From an uncultured SAR116 cluster alpha proteobacterium (lineage in GTDB: Bacteria; Pseudomonadota; Alphaproteobacteria; Puniceispirillales; Marisalimonadaceae), in assembly GCA_902537945.1 (NCBI GenBank), contig CACBDG010000001.1, positions 124,001 to 188,000 on the forward strand: a stretch of 64,000 bases of DNA. Reading direction: 5' to 3'. The position numbers and the translations under genes are program-made. The notes beneath the pieces are model-generated. The model saw nothing but the letters and a program-made list of their open reading frames with translations. It had not been told where the DNA came from and searched no databases. This document shows positions 35,661 to 48,103 of this stretch, piece by piece (position 1 is the first letter of the stretch; each line of letters starts with the position of its first letter).

Positions 35661-38552
35661 ATGCTTAGAAAGAAGACGAAAGGGGTGGCGATAGGCTCCC
35701 AAACTTCATCTTTCATTGGTAAAACCTCAGAAAAAGTCGTTGATAGACGTACTTTTTTGAAAGGTTCAGGATTAGCGGTTGGGGGATTAGCCACCGCTGC
35801 AGCACTCGCAGGTTCAAATGTTAAGCCAGCAAAGGCTTCATTTTCAACCTCTGCAGTATCCATGAAGAAAACAGTTTGTACGCACTGTTCAGTAGGTTGT
35901 ACAATTATGGCTGAAGTTCAAAATGGTGTATGGACAGGTCAAGAGCCAGGTTGGGATAGTCCAATTAATTTAGGTGCTCATTGCTCTAAGGGTGCATCTG
36001 TAAGAGAAACAGCAAGTGGAGAAAGAAGATTAAAATATCCTATGAAGCTTGTTAGTGGCAAATGGACAAGAATGTCATGGGATGATGCCATAAATGAAAT
36101 CGGCGATAAGATGGAATCCATCAGAACTTCATCAGGCCCTGATTCTGTTTATTGGTTAGGTTCTGCTAAATTTAATAATGAGCAGTCATATTTATTCAGA
36201 AAATTTTATGCATATTGGGGCTCTAACAATGGAGATCACCAGGCAAGAATATGTCATTCAACAACAGTTGCAGGTGTTGCTAACACTTGGGGTTACGGTG
36301 CAATGACAAATTCTTATAATGACATTCACAATTCTAAAGCCATGTTTGTCATTGGTGGAAATCCAGCAGAGGCGCACCCAGTGTCATTAATGCACTTAAT
36401 GAAAGCAAAAGAGCAAAATAATGCTCCATTAATTGTATGTGACCCACGTTTTACAAGAACTGCAGCACATGCTGACGAATTTGTAAGATTTCGTCCAGGA
36501 TCAGACGTTGCATTGATTTGGGGAATTATGTGGCATATCTTCGAAAACAAATGGGAAGATAAAGAATTTATTAGGCAACGTGTCTATGGTATGGATGATG
36601 TTAGAGCTGAAGTAAAGAAATGGAATCCTGAGGAAACAGAAAGAGTTACTGGAGTTCCTGGATCTCAGCTAAAAAGAGTAGCTAAAATAATGGCTAACAA
36701 CAGACCTGGTACATTTATTTGGTGTATGGGTGGAACTCAGCATACTAACGGAAATAACAACACAAGAGCATATTGTGCATTCCAATTAGCTTTAGGAAAC
36801 ATGGGAACTGCAGGTGGTGGTGCCAATATATTCCGAGGCCACGATAATGTTCAAGGTGCTACTGACTTTTGTATTTTGTCCCATTCTTTACCAGGTTACT
36901 ACGGTTTATCCGCTGGTGCTTGGAAGCATTGGTCAAGAGTATGGGGAGAAGATTACAATTGGATTAAAGCAAGATTTTCTTCAATGAAAGGAAAAGACGG
37001 TAAAACCAAGAGTATGATGAACCAGAAGGGTATACCTGTATCAAGATGGATTGATGGTGTTCTTGAAAAGAGAGAAAATATAGAACAGCCAGATAATTTA
37101 AAAGCAATGGTTTTCTGGGGACATGCTCCTAACTCTCAAACTAGAATGAAGGAAATGAAAGTTGCAATGGAGAAGTTAGACCTTATGGTTGTAATTGATC
37201 CTTACCCAACAGTTTCTGCAGTTTTATCTGATAGAACAGATGGTGTTTATTTACTCCCATCTACTACTCAGTTTGAGACATATGGATCCCTTACTTCATC
37301 CAATAGATCACTTCAATGGAGAGAGAAGGTTATCGAGCCATCTTTTGACTCACTTCCTGATCATACAATCATATATAAGTTTGCAAAAAAGTTTGGGTTT
37401 GCGGACCGTATGTTCAGAAATATTAAGGTAACCAATGATGAGCCTTACATTGAAGACGTAACTAAAGAGTTCAATAGTGGTATGTGGACAATAGGTTATA
37501 CTGGTCAGTCACCAGAGAGACTTAAAGCTCACATGAAGAATCAACACGTTTTTGATAAAACCACTCTAAGAGCTGTTGGTGGTGAACTTGATGGTGATTA
37601 TTATGGTTTGCCTTGGCCTTGTTGGGGTAACCCTGATATGAAACATCCTGGCACACCATTGCTATATGATACATCAAAGCCAGTGGCAGAAGGCGGATTA
37701 TGTTTTAGAGCACGATTTGGTGTTGAGCACGAAGGTAATAATCTATTAGCTGAAGGTTCATATCCGGTTGGTTCTGAGATTAAAGACGGTTATCCACAAT
37801 TTACAATGGCAATGCTTAAAAAACTTGGCTGGGATAAAGATTTAACAGCTGATGAAAAAGCCGCAATTGATAAAGTTGCTGGAGATAAAACTAACTGGAA
37901 AGTTGACTTATCTGGTGGTATCCAAAGAGTTGCTATTAAACATGGTTGTGCTCCATTTGGAAACGCTAAGGCAAGAGTTAAGGTTTGGACATTCCCAGAT
38001 CCAATCCCATTACACAGAGAGCCACTATACACCTCTAGAAGAGACCTTGTAGCCGATTATCCTACATATTCTGATAGAATGGCATATAGACTTCCAACAT
38101 TGTATAAGTCTATTCAAGATGTGGATCACTCTGTTAAATATCCGATCATTCTAACTTCCGGTAGATTGGTTGAATATGAAGGTGGTGGAGATGAGACAAG
38201 ATCAAATCCATGGCTAGCTGAATTGCAACAAGACATGTTTGTTGAAATCAATCCATTTGATGCCAACTCTAAAGGAATTAGAAACGGTGCAATGGTTTGG
38301 GTTGCGACTCCAGAAGGAGCTAGGATTAAAGTTATGGCAATGGTAACCGAGCGTGTTGCCAAAGGTGTAGCTTTCTTACCATTCCACTTTGGTGGTCATA
38401 TGGAAGGTGAGGATCTTAGATCAAAGTATCCAGAAGGTTCAGATCCATATGTACTAGGTGAAGCAGCAAACACTGCATTTACTTATGGATATGACTCAGT
38501 AACACAGATGCAAGAGACTAAGTGCTCATTGTGTCAAATTGAACTAGCTTAA
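35661..38552 (+). CDS. fdhA: formate dehydrogenase catalytic (alpha) subunit, Tat-exported, Cys type
   Basis: This 963-residue Mo/W-bis-guanylyl-cofactor oxidoreductase converts formate to CO2 in the periplasm. A twin-arginine motif (R29-R30 in DRRTFLKG) precedes the N-terminal [4Fe-4S] site C73-x2-C76-x3-C80-x27-C108. The metal ligand, Sec in E. coli FdnG, is Cys198 (TGT at 36252) followed by the catalytic His199 in ARICHSTTVAG, so no selenocysteine is needed. The C-terminal cofactor-binding lobe (about 820-963) is complete. AAGGAGG stands before the ATG. Codon use looks more selected and less AT-extreme than the neighbours, hinting at high expression. Confidence 0.96.
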   Translation: MLRKKTKGVAIGSQTSSFIGKTSEKVVDRRTFLKGSGLAVGGLATAAALAGSNVKPAKASFSTSAVSMKKTVCTHCSVGCTIMAEVQNGVWTGQEPGWDSPINLGAHCSKGASVRETASGERRLKYPMKLVSGKWTRMSWDDAINEIGDKMESIRTSSGPDSVYWLGSAKFNNEQSYLFRKFYAYWGSNNGDHQARICHSTTVAGVANTWGYGAMTNSYNDIHNSKAMFVIGGNPAEAHPVSLMHLMKAKEQNNAPLIVCDPRFTRTAAHADEFVRFRPGSDVALIWGIMWHIFENKWEDKEFIRQRVYGMDDVRAEVKKWNPEETERVTGVPGSQLKRVAKIMANNRPGTFIWCMGGTQHTNGNNNTRAYCAFQLALGNMGTAGGGANIFRGHDNVQGATDFCILSHSLPGYYGLSAGAWKHWSRVWGEDYNWIKARFSSMKGKDGKTKSMMNQKGIPVSRWIDGVLEKRENIEQPDNLKAMVFWGHAPNSQTRMKEMKVAMEKLDLMVVIDPYPTVSAVLSDRTDGVYLLPSTTQFETYGSLTSSNRSLQWREKVIEPSFDSLPDHTIIYKFAKKFGFADRMFRNIKVTNDEPYIEDVTKEFNSGMWTIGYTGQSPERLKAHMKNQHVFDKTTLRAVGGELDGDYYGLPWPCWGNPDMKHPGTPLLYDTSKPVAEGGLCFRARFGVEHEGNNLLAEGSYPVGSEIKDGYPQFTMAMLKKLGWDKDLTADEKAAIDKVAGDKTNWKVDLSGGIQRVAIKHGCAPFGNAKARVKVWTFPDPIPLHREPLYTSRRDLVADYPTYSDRMAYRLPTLYKSIQDVDHSVKYPIILTSGRLVEYEGGGDETRSNPWLAELQQDMFVEINPFDANSKGIRNGAMVWVATPEGARIKVMAMVTERVAKGVAFLPFHFGGHMEGEDLRSKYPEGSDPYVLGEAANTAFTYGYDSVTQMQETKCSLCQIELA

Positions 38553-38568: not shown

Positions 38569-39159
38569 ATGGCACGAATGAAATTCTTATGCGATGCAGA
38601 AAGATGTATTGAGTGTAACGCCTGTGTGACAGCATGTAAGAACGAGCATGAAGTTCCATGGGGTATTAATAGAAGAAGGGTTGTAACCATTCAAGATGGT
38701 AAGCCAGGAGAAAGATCAATATCCGTAGCCTGTATGCATTGTTCAGATGCTCCTTGCATGGCTGTGTGCCCAGTTGACTGTTTTTATCAAACAGATCAGG
38801 GTGTAGTGTTACATTCTAAGGATCTATGTATAGGCTGTGGTTACTGCTTTTATGCATGTCCTTTTGGAGCACCTCAATTTCCTCAAGCTGGAAATTATGG
38901 ATCAAGAGGAAAAATGGATAAGTGTACTTTTTGCGCAGGTGGACCTGAAACTGATATGGGTGAGTTAGAGTTCCAAAAGTATGGACGTAACAGACTTGCT
39001 GAAGGTAAACTACCATCATGTGCAGAAATGTGTGCAACAAAGGCATTACTTGCTGGTGATGGAGACGAAGTAGCTGATATCTTCAGAGAGAGAGTTGTTG
39101 CTCGTGGTTTTGGTTCTGGCGCATGGGGCTGGGGTACTGCATACCAGTTAAAAGGTTAA
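38569..39159 (+). CDS. fdhB: formate dehydrogenase iron-sulfur (beta) subunit
   Basis: This 196-residue electron-transfer subunit has four [4Fe-4S] sites. The Cys groups are CIECNACVTACKNEHE, CMHCSDAPCMAVCPVDC, CIGCGYCFYACPFGAPQ and CTFCAGG with a later CAEMCATKAL. It carries electrons from FdhA to the cytochrome b. No signal peptide is seen, so it is probably exported together with FdhA by the Tat system. AAAGGAGG lies before the start, 16 bases after fdhA. A strong terminator follows. Confidence 0.95.
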   Translation: MARMKFLCDAERCIECNACVTACKNEHEVPWGINRRRVVTIQDGKPGERSISVACMHCSDAPCMAVCPVDCFYQTDQGVVLHSKDLCIGCGYCFYACPFGAPQFPQAGNYGSRGKMDKCTFCAGGPETDMGELEFQKYGRNRLAEGKLPSCAEMCATKALLAGDGDEVADIFRERVVARGFGSGAWGWGTAYQLKG

Positions 39160-39228: not shown

Positions 39229-39423
39229 ATGATTAATATAAATAAAACATTTTTGATTATCTCAATCTTCCTGTCTTCGTTCTTATTAAGTTCATGTCAG
39301 GAAGAACAAGGAAGAATACTAAATTACAAAAAAGGTGTGTACTTAGGTAAAAAAGACGATATTCTAACTACAGAACAAGTAAATAAACTTAAGATGCATA
39401 CTTCTAGGCAAAGAAGTAATTAA
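39229..39423 (+). CDS. small lipoprotein of the FDH operon
   Basis: This 64-residue protein has a signal peptide and lipobox L-S-S-C with the lipidated Cys at 23. The mature part of about 42 residues contains EEQGRILNYKKGVYLGKKDD and a Lys/Arg-rich end. It sits 13 bases before fdhC. I recall similar short lipoproteins in alphaproteobacterial FDH operons but know no function. It may help anchor or assemble the periplasmic FDH complex. Confidence 0.72.
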   Translation: MININKTFLIISIFLSSFLLSSCQEEQGRILNYKKGVYLGKKDDILTTEQVNKLKMHTSRQRSN

Positions 39424-39436
39424 GAGGAGAGAATTA

Positions 39437-40498
39437 ATGTTCAGAAAACTATTCATTGCATTTACAATGGTATTTGTAATTAGTTTTACATTTTTAACAA
39501 ATTCAAATTCATCAATAGCTCAAGTTAAAGGTGAGGTGCCAGGTAATGCTCTAGGCCTGAAGTCTGACGCCGATTTATGGAGATATATTAGAACTGGCAA
39601 TGCTGGTTCGACTCAAATGAAAGATCAATTGTCTGCTGTAATGATACAATCTGAAGGTGACAATTGGAGGGCTATTAGAAATGGACCCGTTACTTTATAT
39701 GGTGGTATAGGTTTGTTAGCAATTATTGGCGTCCTTTTTGCCTTTTACATGTATAGAGGTAAAATAAAAGTAGATTCTGGATTGTCAGGTGACACTATTT
39801 TAAGGTTTGCTGCAATTGATAGATTTGCTCATTGGTTAATGGCTGGATCATTTGTTTTGTTAGCTTTAACTGGACTTAATCTTATGTATGGTAAATACAT
39901 TTTACTACCAATTTTTGGACCGGAAATATTTACTGCTATAACTATTGGAGGTAAGTATATTCACAACTACTTGGCATTTGCCTTTATGTTAGGTCTTGTT
40001 TTAGCTTTTGTTTTATGGGTAAGACATAACATTCCTAACAAAGTTGATTGGGAATGGATAAAAATGGGTGGTGGTATTTTTAAAGCTGGATTACATCCAC
40101 CTGCCAAGAAGTTCAATGCTGGTCAAAAAATGATCTTTTGGATCACAATGATTGGTGGTCTGTCAGTAAGTATGTCAGGTATAGCATTAATGTTTCCATT
40201 CCAAACAACTATGTTTGCTGATACTTTTGCTATACTTAATGTTTTAGGTTTAGGTTTACCTACAGACTTGACACTTCTTCAAGAACAGCAATTCAACCAG
40301 GTATGGCATGGAATAGTTTCTTTAGGTCTCATGATAATGATTATTGCACATATTTATATAGGATCTGTTGGAATGGAAGGTGCCCTTGATGCTATGAATA
40401 GCGGTGAAGTTGACAAAAATTGGGCAAAAGAGCATCACGGTTTGTGGGTAAAGGAAATGGAAGAAGATAAAAAATCTAAGCCAGAACCCGCAGAGTAA
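39437..40498 (+). CDS. fdhC: formate dehydrogenase cytochrome b (gamma) subunit
   Basis: This 353-residue membrane subunit anchors FDH and passes electrons to quinone through two b haems. It has a signal-like first helix, a periplasmic domain (about 30-85) and then a helix followed by four core helices. Haem-ligand His candidates are in RFAHWLMAGS, KYIHNYLAF, QVWHGIV and IIAHIYIGS. AGAGGAG precedes the ATG. The N-terminal extra domain is normal for the alphaproteobacterial type and absent from E. coli FdnI. Confidence 0.94.
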   Translation: MFRKLFIAFTMVFVISFTFLTNSNSSIAQVKGEVPGNALGLKSDADLWRYIRTGNAGSTQMKDQLSAVMIQSEGDNWRAIRNGPVTLYGGIGLLAIIGVLFAFYMYRGKIKVDSGLSGDTILRFAAIDRFAHWLMAGSFVLLALTGLNLMYGKYILLPIFGPEIFTAITIGGKYIHNYLAFAFMLGLVLAFVLWVRHNIPNKVDWEWIKMGGGIFKAGLHPPAKKFNAGQKMIFWITMIGGLSVSMSGIALMFPFQTTMFADTFAILNVLGLGLPTDLTLLQEQQFNQVWHGIVSLGLMIMIIAHIYIGSVGMEGALDAMNSGEVDKNWAKEHHGLWVKEMEEDKKSKPEPAE

Positions 40499-40512: not shown

Positions 40513-41862
40513 ATGCTACCTAAAAAAATTTTCTTAAAAGATATCATAATTATTAAATTGATTATGGTATCTTTTTTATTATTGATTAAAACTTCACATA
40601 GTATTGAGCAATATACTGCCCATGGTGGTCCTGTTAAGGGTTTAGCTGTATCTGCAAGTAATAATTTAATGGCAAGTGCTAGCTTTGATTATTCAGTTGT
40701 AATTTGGGACCTAAATCCAATTAAAGAAAGATTAACTTTGATTGGTCATGATGCGGCTGTTAACACTGTAAAATTTTCGCCAAATAATGACCTTTTAGCA
40801 TCAGGAGGGGATGACAACAATATTTTATTGTGGGCATTAAAGGATATTAATAATTTAAATGAAGAAATACAGCCAATTAAATTAGGTAATCATAAAGGTA
40901 AAATTGCAGATTTAGAATTTTCAAATAATGGTAGATATTTAATATCGGCAAGTTGGGATGGAACAGTAGGAGTATGGGATTTAAAAAAAAGAAAATTAAT
41001 TAATACTTTAGTAGGTCATAAAGGACCAGTATATGCTGTTAAATACTCTAAAGATAACAAACATATTTATAGCTCAGGATATGATGGTGATATAAAGCTT
41101 TGGAAAGCCAATAGTGGAGAATATTTAAGGCCAATCGTTAAAAATGGTTGGGGAATTTCAAAGTTTGAAGTAGATGAAAAACTTAATTTTATTGCTTTTG
41201 GTTCTACAGATGGACAAATAAAAATAAATAAATTTGATAAGGACGAAACAATTCTAAATATAAAAGAAGATAGGGTACCAATTTTATCAATGTACTACTT
41301 AGAAAATGAAAATATGATTAGTTTTGGAAATGCAAAAGGAAGAATGATCATATTAGACACGAAAAATTGGTCATTAGTTAGAGATTTCAATGCTGTTAAT
41401 GGACCAATATGGGACAATATCCTTTTTCCTAATGATTCTTCATTAATCGTAGCTGGTTTAGACGATTTCTTAACAAGGTGGCAAATATTTGACTTTCCTC
41501 CAAAATTTTTAGAGAGACCTGGGCCAGCTAGAAGATTTAACCCTGTAAAAGAGGTCAGTAACGGTGAAAAACAATTTGCCAGGAAATGCAGTGTTTGTCA
41601 TACTCTTGTAAAAAATGGGAAAAAAAGAGCAGGTCCAACACTTTATAAAATTTTTGGACGTAAGGCTGGAACATTAGAAGGATATAAATATTCAAAAGCT
41701 CTCATTAAATCTGATATAATATGGAATGAAGAAAGTATTAATAGGCTATTTGATGAGGGACCTGATAAAGTAACCCCAGGTACAAAGATGCCAATACAAA
41801 GAATGAAAAAAATACAAGACAGAAAAGATCTTGTAATGTTTTTAAAAAAAGCTACTAACTAA
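40513..41862 (+). CDS. secreted WD40 propeller fused to class I cytochrome c
   Basis: This 449-residue protein has a hydrophobic signal segment (about 12-30), then a beta-propeller of about seven WD40-like blades (35-325; for example DYSVVIWDL at 59-67, DGTVGVWDL at 149-157 and DGDIKLWKA at 191-199). A C-terminal cytochrome c follows, with haem motif CSVCH (C359, C362, H363) and a likely axial Met426 in PGTKMP. It is probably a periplasmic electron carrier docked by its propeller. It follows fdhC by 14 bases. Formate electrons could thus reach c-type acceptors, or it may serve assembly; that part is inference. Confidence 0.85.
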   Translation: MLPKKIFLKDIIIIKLIMVSFLLLIKTSHSIEQYTAHGGPVKGLAVSASNNLMASASFDYSVVIWDLNPIKERLTLIGHDAAVNTVKFSPNNDLLASGGDDNNILLWALKDINNLNEEIQPIKLGNHKGKIADLEFSNNGRYLISASWDGTVGVWDLKKRKLINTLVGHKGPVYAVKYSKDNKHIYSSGYDGDIKLWKANSGEYLRPIVKNGWGISKFEVDEKLNFIAFGSTDGQIKINKFDKDETILNIKEDRVPILSMYYLENENMISFGNAKGRMIILDTKNWSLVRDFNAVNGPIWDNILFPNDSSLIVAGLDDFLTRWQIFDFPPKFLERPGPARRFNPVKEVSNGEKQFARKCSVCHTLVKNGKKRAGPTLYKIFGRKAGTLEGYKYSKALIKSDIIWNEESINRLFDEGPDKVTPGTKMPIQRMKKIQDRKDLVMFLKKATN

Positions 41863-41877
41863 ACAAAGGAGTTTAAA

Positions 41878-42000
41878 ATGAAAATGTTTTTTACAAGTAG
41901 TGTGTTTGCGATAATAGTTGGAGTAGGTGTATACGTGATTTTAACAAGTACGGGTATGGATACTGCAAGTGTTATGTCAAGTTCAAATGTAAGATTATAG
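41878..42000 (+). CDS. 40-residue single-helix membrane protein in FDH operon
   Basis: An ATG at 41878, 6 bases after AAAGGAG, opens a 40-codon frame closed by TAG at 42000. It encodes a short start, one hydrophobic helix (about residues 9-23, AIIVGVGVYVILT) and a polar tail ending in S-S-S-N-V-R-L. It fits exactly between the cytochrome fusion (15 bases) and the protease (17 bases). It may be a small helper subunit of the FDH/cytochrome complex. Tail pattern and spacing argue that it is real; function is unknown. Confidence 0.68.
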   Translation: MKMFFTSSVFAIIVGVGVYVILTSTGMDTASVMSSSNVRL

Positions 42001-42017: not shown

Positions 42018-42728
42018 ATGGTTAATAAAACTATTAAATCAGTTTTATATATAACTATATTCTTAATAAATTTTAGTACCCTTGCCCACGATTATTCTGA
42101 AGTATGGGAAAAAGGTTACAAATCAACTGTAGTTGTTTTGCCAACTTGGCCAGGATATAATAAACCCGGTTTTGGGGCTCCAGCAGGTACTGCGCCGGCT
42201 GGTACAGGATTTTATTTGTCATTGGACAAAAAGAAAAAAATGACAAACTATATACTTACAGCTGCACATGTAATTAAAAATGCAAAGATAGTAGAAATTA
42301 AAAATTATAATGACAAATCAGAGCAAGTTGACGTGATTTTGACTGATTTTAAAACTGATATAGCTATTTTAAAATCAAAAAACAAAGGCCAAAGTGTCCT
42401 AGTTACAAAGAAAAAAATAAAATATGGTAATGAAGTTTGTCTAATAGGTAATAGTTTTGGATTAGGTCAAAGCTTATCATGTGGAATAGTATCTGGACTT
42501 AATAGAACAAGATTGGGGTTCAACCCAATTGAGGACTTTATTCAAACAGATGCAGCAGTAAATCCTGGTGCTTCAGGTGCACCTTTATTAAATAAAGAAG
42601 GCCAACTGATAGGTATGGTAGACGCAATATACACCAAAGAAGCAGACATTGATGCTGGAGTTAATTTTGCAATTGACATTAAATTAATAGAAAAGTTTTT
42701 GAAAAAATATGCTAGTCAGATAAAATAG
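42018..42728 (+). CDS. periplasmic trypsin-like serine protease (no PDZ)
   Basis: This 236-residue S1C-like protease has a signal peptide (about 1-23) and triad His84 (TAAHVI), Asp114 (KTDIAIL) and Ser186 (NPGASGAPL). The Ser loop reads GASGAP rather than the common GNSGGP, a mild departure. There is no PDZ domain, unlike DegP. A short AP-GT repeat (GAPAGTAPAGTG, 53-64) sits before the first strand. It lies between the cytochrome fusion and moeA, so a quality-control or processing role for periplasmic FDH parts is possible. Confidence 0.82.
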   Translation: MVNKTIKSVLYITIFLINFSTLAHDYSEVWEKGYKSTVVVLPTWPGYNKPGFGAPAGTAPAGTGFYLSLDKKKKMTNYILTAAHVIKNAKIVEIKNYNDKSEQVDVILTDFKTDIAILKSKNKGQSVLVTKKKIKYGNEVCLIGNSFGLGQSLSCGIVSGLNRTRLGFNPIEDFIQTDAAVNPGASGAPLLNKEGQLIGMVDAIYTKEADIDAGVNFAIDIKLIEKFLKKYASQIK

Positions 42729-47122: not shown

Positions 47123-47995
47123 TTGTCTGATTATTTTACAACTGATGAATTAGCAGAGTTTCTTAGAGTTAAACCAAGAAAAATTTATGATCTAGTTTCT
47201 AAAGAAGAAGTGCCATTTTCGAGAGTAATGGGCAAATTATTATTTTCTAAAGAAGAAGTGGCTAACTGGATAGCTGGCAATAATAACTCTGTCGAAAATA
47301 AAAATTATTTACCAGATGTAATTTTAGGAAGTCATGATCCTCTCCTTGAATATGCAATAAAAAAATCTGGATCAGGTATAGCTTTATCTTTTGATGGTAG
47401 TAATAAGGGGCTTGAAAGGTTTAAATTAAACCAGGGAATTGCATCAGGACTTCATGTTTATGATTTTAGTTCAAAAAAATGGAATATTCCTAGTGTTGAA
47501 AAATATTTAAATGATAAAGATTTTGTTCTTATGGAATGGGCAAAAAGAGAAAGAGGTTTGATATTTCAACCCCATAACGAATCAAAAAAGAGCATAACAG
47601 ATTTTAAAGGTCTAAGACTAGTCACTAGACAACCTGGTTCAGGTGCGGATAATTATTTAAAGAATTTGTTAAAAAGTGAAAATTTAAATTTATCAGATTT
47701 TGTTAAAACAGAAATTGTTTATTCTGAAATTGACGCAGTTTCATTGGTTTTGTCTGGTCAAGCTGATGTAACTCTAGGTATAGCCTCTGAGGCAGAAAAG
47801 TATAAACTTAAATTTATTCCAGTAGTTAAAGAAAGATTTGATTTAGTAATTGACAGATTTTGTTGGTTTGAAGCTCCGTTCCAAAAACTTTTACAATTTT
47901 CTCAAACGACGGAGTTTTTTGATGTCGCTTCTAGATTAAAGGGTTATAATATAAAAGATCTTGGTGTAATACACTTTAATAGTAAACAGGTATAA
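47123..47995 (+). CDS. HTH-PBP fusion, putative molybdate/tungstate sensor-regulator
   Basis: This 290-residue protein has an N-terminal excisionase/MerR-like HTH (about 3-48: TTDELAEFLRVKPRKIYDLV then LLFSKEEVANWI). A periplasmic-binding-protein-like domain (about 62-285) follows, with LSFDGSNKGL and LVTRQPGSGADNYL, as in PBP_like domains found with MoeA or regulators. No signal peptide, so it senses ligands in the cytoplasm. The start is TTG, since the only nearby upstream ATG (47110) runs into TAA. Regulation of the FDH/tup genes by oxyanion is inferred. Confidence 0.83.
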   Translation: MSDYFTTDELAEFLRVKPRKIYDLVSKEEVPFSRVMGKLLFSKEEVANWIAGNNNSVENKNYLPDVILGSHDPLLEYAIKKSGSGIALSFDGSNKGLERFKLNQGIASGLHVYDFSSKKWNIPSVEKYLNDKDFVLMEWAKRERGLIFQPHNESKKSITDFKGLRLVTRQPGSGADNYLKNLLKSENLNLSDFVKTEIVYSEIDAVSLVLSGQADVTLGIASEAEKYKLKFIPVVKERFDLVIDRFCWFEAPFQKLLQFSQTTEFFDVASRLKGYNIKDLGVIHFNSKQV

Positions 47996-47998
47996 TTA

Positions 47999-48103
47999 AT
48001 GTTTAAAGAAATAGGAATGGGGTTATTAGGTGTTTTAATAATTATAACTCTATTTTTTTTCTTTTTAGGTCTTAAGACTTTTTTGTTTTCGATTGCTTAC
48101 TAA
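47999..48103 (+). CDS. 34-residue single-helix membrane protein
   Basis: An ATG at 47999, three bases after the HTH-PBP stop, opens 34 codons to TAA at 48103. It encodes one hydrophobic helix (about 6-24) with a small LGLKTFLFSIAY tail. The ribosome site is weak (ACAGG). The tight fit between its neighbours (5 bases to the convergent dehydrogenase) favours a real gene, but short AT-rich sequence makes such frames easy to find. Confidence 0.42.
   Translation: MFKEIGMGLLGVLIIITLFFFFLGLKTFLFSIAY

Follow-up and report, generated by a model that had tools for sequence, protein, structure and literature searches.

CydX/CbdX and CcoM are single-helix membrane proteins of about 35 to 45 residues encoded in respiratory-enzyme operons, and NapE/TorE are small proteins with one helix, the genes of which accompany those of periplasmic molybdoenzymes. 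In FDH-N, the C-terminal helix of FdnH (Form-deh_trans) is part of the beta subunit, runs from the periplasm to the cytoplasm, and connects the iron-sulfur and cytochrome b subunits. The available part of PMC10117765 presents CydX as a small respiratory subunit and suggests that S. meliloti SEP20, a small one-helix protein of a respiratory operon, acts together with the adjoining enzyme; CcoM appears, in the excerpt available, as a 36-aa subunit. The closest solved structure to the formate dehydrogenase (FDH) studied here is Shewanella FdhAB (9VAP), which the available part of PMC13397495 describes as alpha plus beta only; the same excerpt places metal-dependent FDHs under study for CO2 reduction. 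No small membrane protein of an FDH locus is described in the available parts of PMC13397495, PMC10117765, and PMC4464133, and none was found described by a literature search run mostly outside subscription journals.

Here, we analyzed a window, a stretch of 64,000 nucleotides from the 74.96% complete genome (G000) of an uncultured SAR116 cluster alphaproteobacterium, in which a 40-aa protein is encoded at an FDH3 locus. The protein resembles CydX/CbdX and CcoM in its size, single helix, and placement in a respiratory operon, but its partner is a molybdopterin formate dehydrogenase, its V-R-L end is its most conserved part, and no CydX/CbdX, CcoM, FixQ/CcoQ, or NapE/TorE model is among the hmmscan matches of 50 family members at E ≤ 0.1. 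This last point also sets it apart from NapE/TorE, which it otherwise matches in size, helix, and molybdoenzyme operon. SEP20, likened to it by description and not by sequence, is encoded among cytochrome c oxidase genes instead of at an FDH locus. In contrast to the FdnH helix, it is a separate protein and is predicted to take the opposite orientation. Its association with FDH genes across genomes suggests that it probably serves formate dehydrogenase as a small subunit, so far unnamed, or as an assembly helper.

Organization of the FDH3 locus

The FDH3 genes of the window are arranged in the order TorD-like chaperone, TIGR02811, alpha, beta, a 64-aa lipoprotein-like ORF, and cytochrome b gamma, and maturation-type genes (TorD-like and MoeA) surround the locus. 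We assigned it to FDH3 because beta exceeds the NF038355 cut-off and its gene adjoins those of alpha and cytochrome b gamma. The molybdopterin catalytic subunit alpha (35661..38552, + strand) gave 462.8 bits with TIGR01591, below the cut-off of 666, matches 9vap_A over residues 27-961, and by sequence reading carries a twin-arginine motif, RRTFLKG, near its N terminus. The iron-sulfur subunit beta (38569..39159, +; 196 aa) scored 338.1 bits with NF038355 against a cut-off of 240; its alignment to 1kqf_B is confined to residues 77-200 of the 294 in that chain, and Form-deh_trans, the FDH-N membrane-helix family, is absent from its 13 Pfam matches. For the cytochrome b subunit gamma (39437..40498, +), TIGR01583 gave 141.6 bits against a cut-off of 115.85, and residues 120-348 align to 1kqf_C 6-211, with approximately 114 additional N-terminal residues compared with E. 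coli FdnI.

Gamma is followed by a gene for a WD40 beta-propeller fused to a cytochrome c with a CxxCH motif (40513..41862, +; Pfam WD40), the product of which matches an NCBIfam cytochrome c-550-like model over residues 347-444 at 57 bits, below the 240 cut-off. Then come the 40-aa ORF and, as the next gene downstream, one for an HtrA/trypsin-like protease domain protein (42018..42728, +; Trypsin_2, E = 3.9e-23). The FdhX-like protein TIGR02811 (35370-35630, upstream of fdhA) is likewise a small conserved protein of FDH loci, but it is a Tat-signal protein of a different sequence kind.

A conserved short gene downstream of the WD40-cytochrome c gene

The frame at 41878..42000 (+) runs from ATG 41878 to TAG 42000 and specifies 40 residues, MKMFFTSSVFAIIVGVGVYVILTSTGMDTASVMSSSNVRL, with an M-K start, a helix at about residues 4-24, and a V-R-L tail. 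Its AAAGGAG ribosome-binding site (41865..41871, +), which the first-pass annotation had described as well spaced, indeed lies 6 nt before ATG 41878, and a GGAG site precedes the ATG in all 15 close copies of the ORF. That annotation had also stated that the ORF fills the gap between two genes exactly; it does sit between them, but spacers of 15 nt upstream (gene stop at 41862) and 17 nt downstream (ATG at 42018) remain, so that the wording was slightly generous. The proposed single hydrophobic helix is borne out by a best 19-residue Kyte-Doolittle mean of 2.32 and by the AlphaFold2 model, in which one helix spans residues 2-24 and a second, short helix spans 29-33. The pLDDT averages about 90 for residues 1-20 and 62 for the last ten, the tail being poorly determined.

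Since 85 ORFs of at least 30 aa overlap the 34- to 50-kb part of the window, an ORF as short as this one is uninformative alone; as judged from comparison among genomes, it is conservation and not length that raises it above chance. Protein copies of 98 to 100% identity are encoded in 14 other genomes of the window's genus. The 15 close copies comprise 7 distinct DNA sequences with 12 variable sites, of which 9 are third and 3 are first codon positions. Pooled pN/pS was 0.048 for these 7 sequences and 0.222 for 12 distinct sequences with identity down to 63%, and stops occur in both other forward frames of the four sequences inspected. The start and tail of the protein are kept among close copies, and the flanking spacers differ in length and sequence.

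Within the genus, the ORF was found in 17 of the 37 genomes searched. The 20 genomes that do not carry it gave no FDH3-beta when tested. Ten that do carry it were also tested, and nine of these have FDH3-beta, eight over the cut-off and one as a contig-end fragment scoring 222.8 bits; the contig of the remaining genome ends 513 nt from the ORF. Because the genomes without the ORF also lack FDH3-beta, the absences reflect a missing locus or gaps in incomplete assemblies (completeness of 52-90%), not loss of the frame. Frame loss or random substitution in close relatives, named beforehand as what would speak against a gene, was thus not seen. By its substitution pattern, 41878-42000 reads as a genuine conserved gene under purifying selection.

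A family of small proteins ending in V-R-L

A sequence search of the window's order gave matches in 65 of 136 genomes (E ≤ 1, the weak end of which includes chance matches), and members from this order only made up profile A1. Alignment A4 holds 50 members, the window protein and 49 of 78 listed; 26 near-duplicates were left out, together with L147, L164, and L168 for weak or cut tails. Of the loci matched with A1 in the class, L057, L059, L060, L062, L063, and L065-L068 had been left out of alignment A2 for want of a full match with the tail, and L065 returned as L168.

The A4 members are 40 to 47 aa long, and their best 19-residue hydropathy mean is at least 1.71 in 50/50. K2 is present in 45/50, and residues 1-6 carry a net charge of +1 in 46/50. 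The first-pass annotation had suggested that the SSSNVRL end is a conserved tail, and this held for its last residues, with V38 in 48, R39 in 50, and L40 in 48 of the 50 members, counts that are somewhat flattered as rows were partly chosen for VRL-like ends. The column entropy averages 0.56 bits over the end (residues 37-40), compared with 2.12 over residues 4-24 and 2.34 over residues 25-36, and V-R-L is the best-conserved stretch after the M-K start. The window protein belongs to the family, with 40 aa, an M-K start, one hydrophobic helix, an NVRL end, and FDH3-beta in its own genome. One-helix relatives, nearly always with a V-R-L end, were found in SAR116, in roseobacters and other Alphaproteobacteria, and, beyond this class, in Litoricola-type bacteria and one more genus. 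In several plasmid members, the tail varies to NARL, SVRV, NVQL, and AARL, and the protein extends beyond V-R-L in some lineages.

An hmmscan search with the 50 members listed 15 Pfam and 10 NCBIfam families at E ≤ 0.1, none of them a convincing match; no Pfam family was common to more than 2 of the 50, and Form-deh_trans was not among the Pfam matches. The best Pfam match of the window protein, SHR3_chaperone (E = 0.019, below the cut-off), was judged a chance helix match. A profile search of solved chains revealed no convincing relative either, since its matches (p75 receptor, complex I B3, light-harvesting chains, and Frizzled-7; best E = 0.0085) were judged to be chance matches of hydrophobic helices. 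On these comparisons the family, of about 41 aa with a V-R-L tail, is new, without name or model so far, and it is ready to receive both.

A longer, more distant form with an STSGARV-like tail and an extension was observed near FDH3 genes in L242, L243, L244, L245, and L224, and these proteins may be a second branch of the family. L230, L231, and L232 are weak candidates (E of 0.019-0.11) from FDH3 genomes otherwise without a small protein, and they end in ARVGTHVRL or ARVGTDVRL. One FDH3 locus is labelled uncultured Flavobacteriales (L111), and its small protein is the same as that of an alphaproteobacterial bin (L113); the label is perhaps a binning error.

Annotation in plasmid records

Twelve regions were examined out of 96 plasmid records with FDH3-beta, and eight contain a member at E < 1e-3 (L216, L217, L218, L222, L224, L225, L226, and L227). 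All eight members coincide with annotated RefSeq coding sequences named 'hypothetical protein'. The first-pass view of the gene as overlooked, being short enough to be missed by automated annotation, is therefore only partly right, and a miss is not supported by the plasmid records: the coding sequence is called in 8/8, but only under that name. Pipelines can call the small gene; a name and a function are what it lacks. No member at E < 1e-3 was found in the other four regions, from the Betaproteobacteria Variovorax and Diaphorobacter (L219 and L223) and from Sinorhizobium and Bradyrhizobium (L220 and L221).

Co-occurrence with FDH3 across genomes

FDH3 genes were found in SAR116, roseobacters, Azospirillum, Sinorhizobium, and other plasmid-bearing bacteria. 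In a sample of 385 genomes of the class, FDH3-beta was called with NF038355 and the small gene at E ≤ 1e-3. FDH3-beta was present in 56 genomes. Using A4, we found both genes in 46 genomes, the small gene only in 5, FDH3 only in 10, and neither in 324, so that the small gene occurs in 46/56 genomes with FDH3-beta versus 5/329 without, although A4 includes class-sample rows that match by construction. Profile A1, the class result of which is free of this effect except for the order members, matched 16 of the 385 genomes at E ≤ 1e-3, 13 of them outside the window's order, and FDH3-beta is present in all 16.

A draw of 299 genomes from the phylum, which shares some class genomes with the class sample, gave members in 20 of 21 FDH3-bearing genomes of the class, in 3 of 20 FDH3-bearing genomes outside it (all of one genus; the other 17 have none at E ≤ 1e-3), and in 1 of 258 genomes without FDH3. 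Fourteen matching genomes were new in this draw, and FDH3-beta is over the cut-off in 13 of them. The tie to formate dehydrogenase in the first-pass annotation is supported, as presence tracks FDH3 genome by genome (46/56 versus 5/329 in the class sample; 9/10 versus 0/20 in the genus).

Exceptions are found on both sides. G240 and G511 have FDH3, well-covered flanks, and the WD40-cytochrome gene and no small gene; these look like true absences, and the small gene seems dispensable there. Among the other genomes with FDH3 and no clear member, the region of G136 ends inside fdhB, G500 has no fdhG on the contig, G445 has only a 52-aa piece of fdhG, and in G199 the contig stops roughly 0.5 kb beyond fdhG. 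Three genomes (G210, G419, and G496) have a similar but weakly matching ORF (E of 0.019-0.11), and G362 has FDH genes with no candidate small gene. Conversely, five genomes with a small-gene match gave no FDH3-beta over the cut-off, also upon re-search. The matches lie close to contig ends in G142 and G261; G361 carries fdhG and the WD40-cytochrome gene on the same contig; the contig of G444 is 9.4 kb long and has no FDH gene; and the match in G274 is weak, partial, and inside a 255-aa frame. In L159 and L240, no FDH gene was found in the region examined, and FDH3 lies elsewhere in those genomes. Since FDH3 genomes and plasmid regions without a member exist, the small protein cannot be a catalytic component common to all FDH3 enzymes; from this distribution, it is to be read as an accessory part, not a catalytic one.

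Gene neighborhood and the WD40-cytochrome c

In 42 of the 46 class genomes with both genes, the small gene shares a contig with fdhB and follows 1.2-4.8 kb beyond it, on the same strand in 27 and on the opposite one in 15; in the remaining four it is on another contig (two), 12.8 kb away, or more than 400 kb away. We also assembled 80 named loci (kept out of 324) that were found through the WD40-cytochrome gene. The small gene is present in 72 of them (weakest E = 0.011), and 70 of these 72 hold an FDH gene, the two remaining contigs beginning inside the WD40-cytochrome gene.

Within the 72 loci, which are biased by having been found through that very gene, the small gene directly follows the WD40-cytochrome gene in 56, which could mean that the small protein partners the WD40-cytochrome c or helps to assemble it, holding this periplasmic cytochrome at the membrane or at FDH. 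L156 and L160 agree with this, as in each of them the two genes keep together while the FDH genes are on the other strand, and so does Sagittula, in which a strong member overlaps a c-type cytochrome gene by 4 nt. A weak member (E = 9.7e-4) in Loktanella overlaps the gamma gene fdhG, also by 4 nt, and the two overlaps, as sequences, resemble translational coupling. Many of the first class-wide matches also adjoin CxxCH genes.

However, in 15 of the 72 loci the small gene is found on the gamma-facing side of the cytochrome gene (Gamma proteobacterium HIMB30, Litoricola, and several alphaproteobacterial bins); it is on the opposite strand in one. The eight named loci without the small gene (L121, L127, L130-L133, L135, and L143) hold no FDH gene; the sequence upstream extends for 4.9 kb or more in six of them and is short in L133 and L143. 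Conversely, in L165, L216, L222, L224, L225, and L227 the small gene accompanies FDH genes, and the region gave no WD40-cytochrome match. Among the eight plasmid regions with a member, such a match was obtained in three (L217, L218, and L226) and in none of the other five, and in L222 the small gene is upstream of a TorD-like gene. The WD40-cytochrome c is thus a frequent, non-obligatory neighbor. Because WD40-cytochrome loci without FDH lack the small gene and FDH loci without the cytochrome have it, the constant element is FDH3, not the cytochrome, and we consider a role as cytochrome partner unlikely. Three of the eight FDH-less WD40-cytochrome c genes adjoin an HtrA-like gene.

Proposed role of the small protein

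In this enzyme class the catalytic part is periplasmic and held to gamma, and that of FDH3 should be so in the window's enzyme as well, because alpha carries a twin-arginine motif and beta is without a membrane helix of the FDH-N type. The small protein would insert as a single helix with its M-K N terminus in the cytoplasm and its short tail in the periplasm, a topology proposed because the N terminus is positively charged and the net charge of the tail is zero or negative in 42 of the 50 members. Its conserved V-R-L end may dock on the catalytic alpha-beta part or on the interface of that part with the cytochrome b subunit, and docking would stabilize the FDH3 complex or aid its assembly. 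Stabilizing or assembling the contact between the catalytic part and the membrane would be the simplest reading of its role. We consider it fairly likely that the ORF product is an accessory subunit of a membrane-bound, periplasm-facing FDH3 that stabilizes the complex or helps assemble it. A plain replacement of the helix missing from FDH3 beta is not put forward, since the predicted orientation is opposite and the N-terminal extension of gamma could supply a helix.

A factor for FDH3 assembly or maturation (heme, Tat, or membrane insertion) that stays outside the finished enzyme would fit the genetic association equally, and a helper suits the occasional separation from the operon, the loss in some genomes, and the TorD-like and MoeA genes around the locus; but small one-helix proteins of respiratory operons, such as CydX and CcoM, have often proved to be subunits, and we regard such a factor as improbable, slightly more so than a cytochrome partner. 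It is highly improbable that the frame arose by accident or that it marks non-coding DNA such as a spacer or leader: short as it is, and in AT-rich local DNA, its substitution pattern strongly opposes this, frame and tail are conserved over a class, and the unit is found intact at other operon positions.

The accessory-subunit reading may be taken further. With somewhat less than an even chance, in our estimate, FDH3 of the Alphaproteobacteria and a few other lineages would be a four-part enzyme, in which the V-R-L microprotein couples the catalytic part to cytochrome b and, where present, to the WD40-cytochrome c. Set against Shewanella FdhAB, alpha plus beta only as far as the available part of its description goes, the proposed fourth subunit would be a lineage-specific addition. 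If the one-helix subunit is real, expression constructs with only alpha, beta, and gamma would be incomplete for lineages carrying the small gene.

Other short ORFs in the window

The 64-aa lipoprotein-like ORF (39229-39423, +), with an LLSSC motif, lies between fdhB and fdhG. It has no Pfam match at E ≤ 0.1 and no PDB match; tblastn gave matches to it in most SAR116 named loci and in several distant loci, and Variovorax and Diaphorobacter carry longer annotated 'hypothetical' ORFs at its position. A 34-aa hydrophobic ORF (47999-48103, +), without an NCBIfam match at E ≤ 0.1, directly follows the ORF at 47123-47995.
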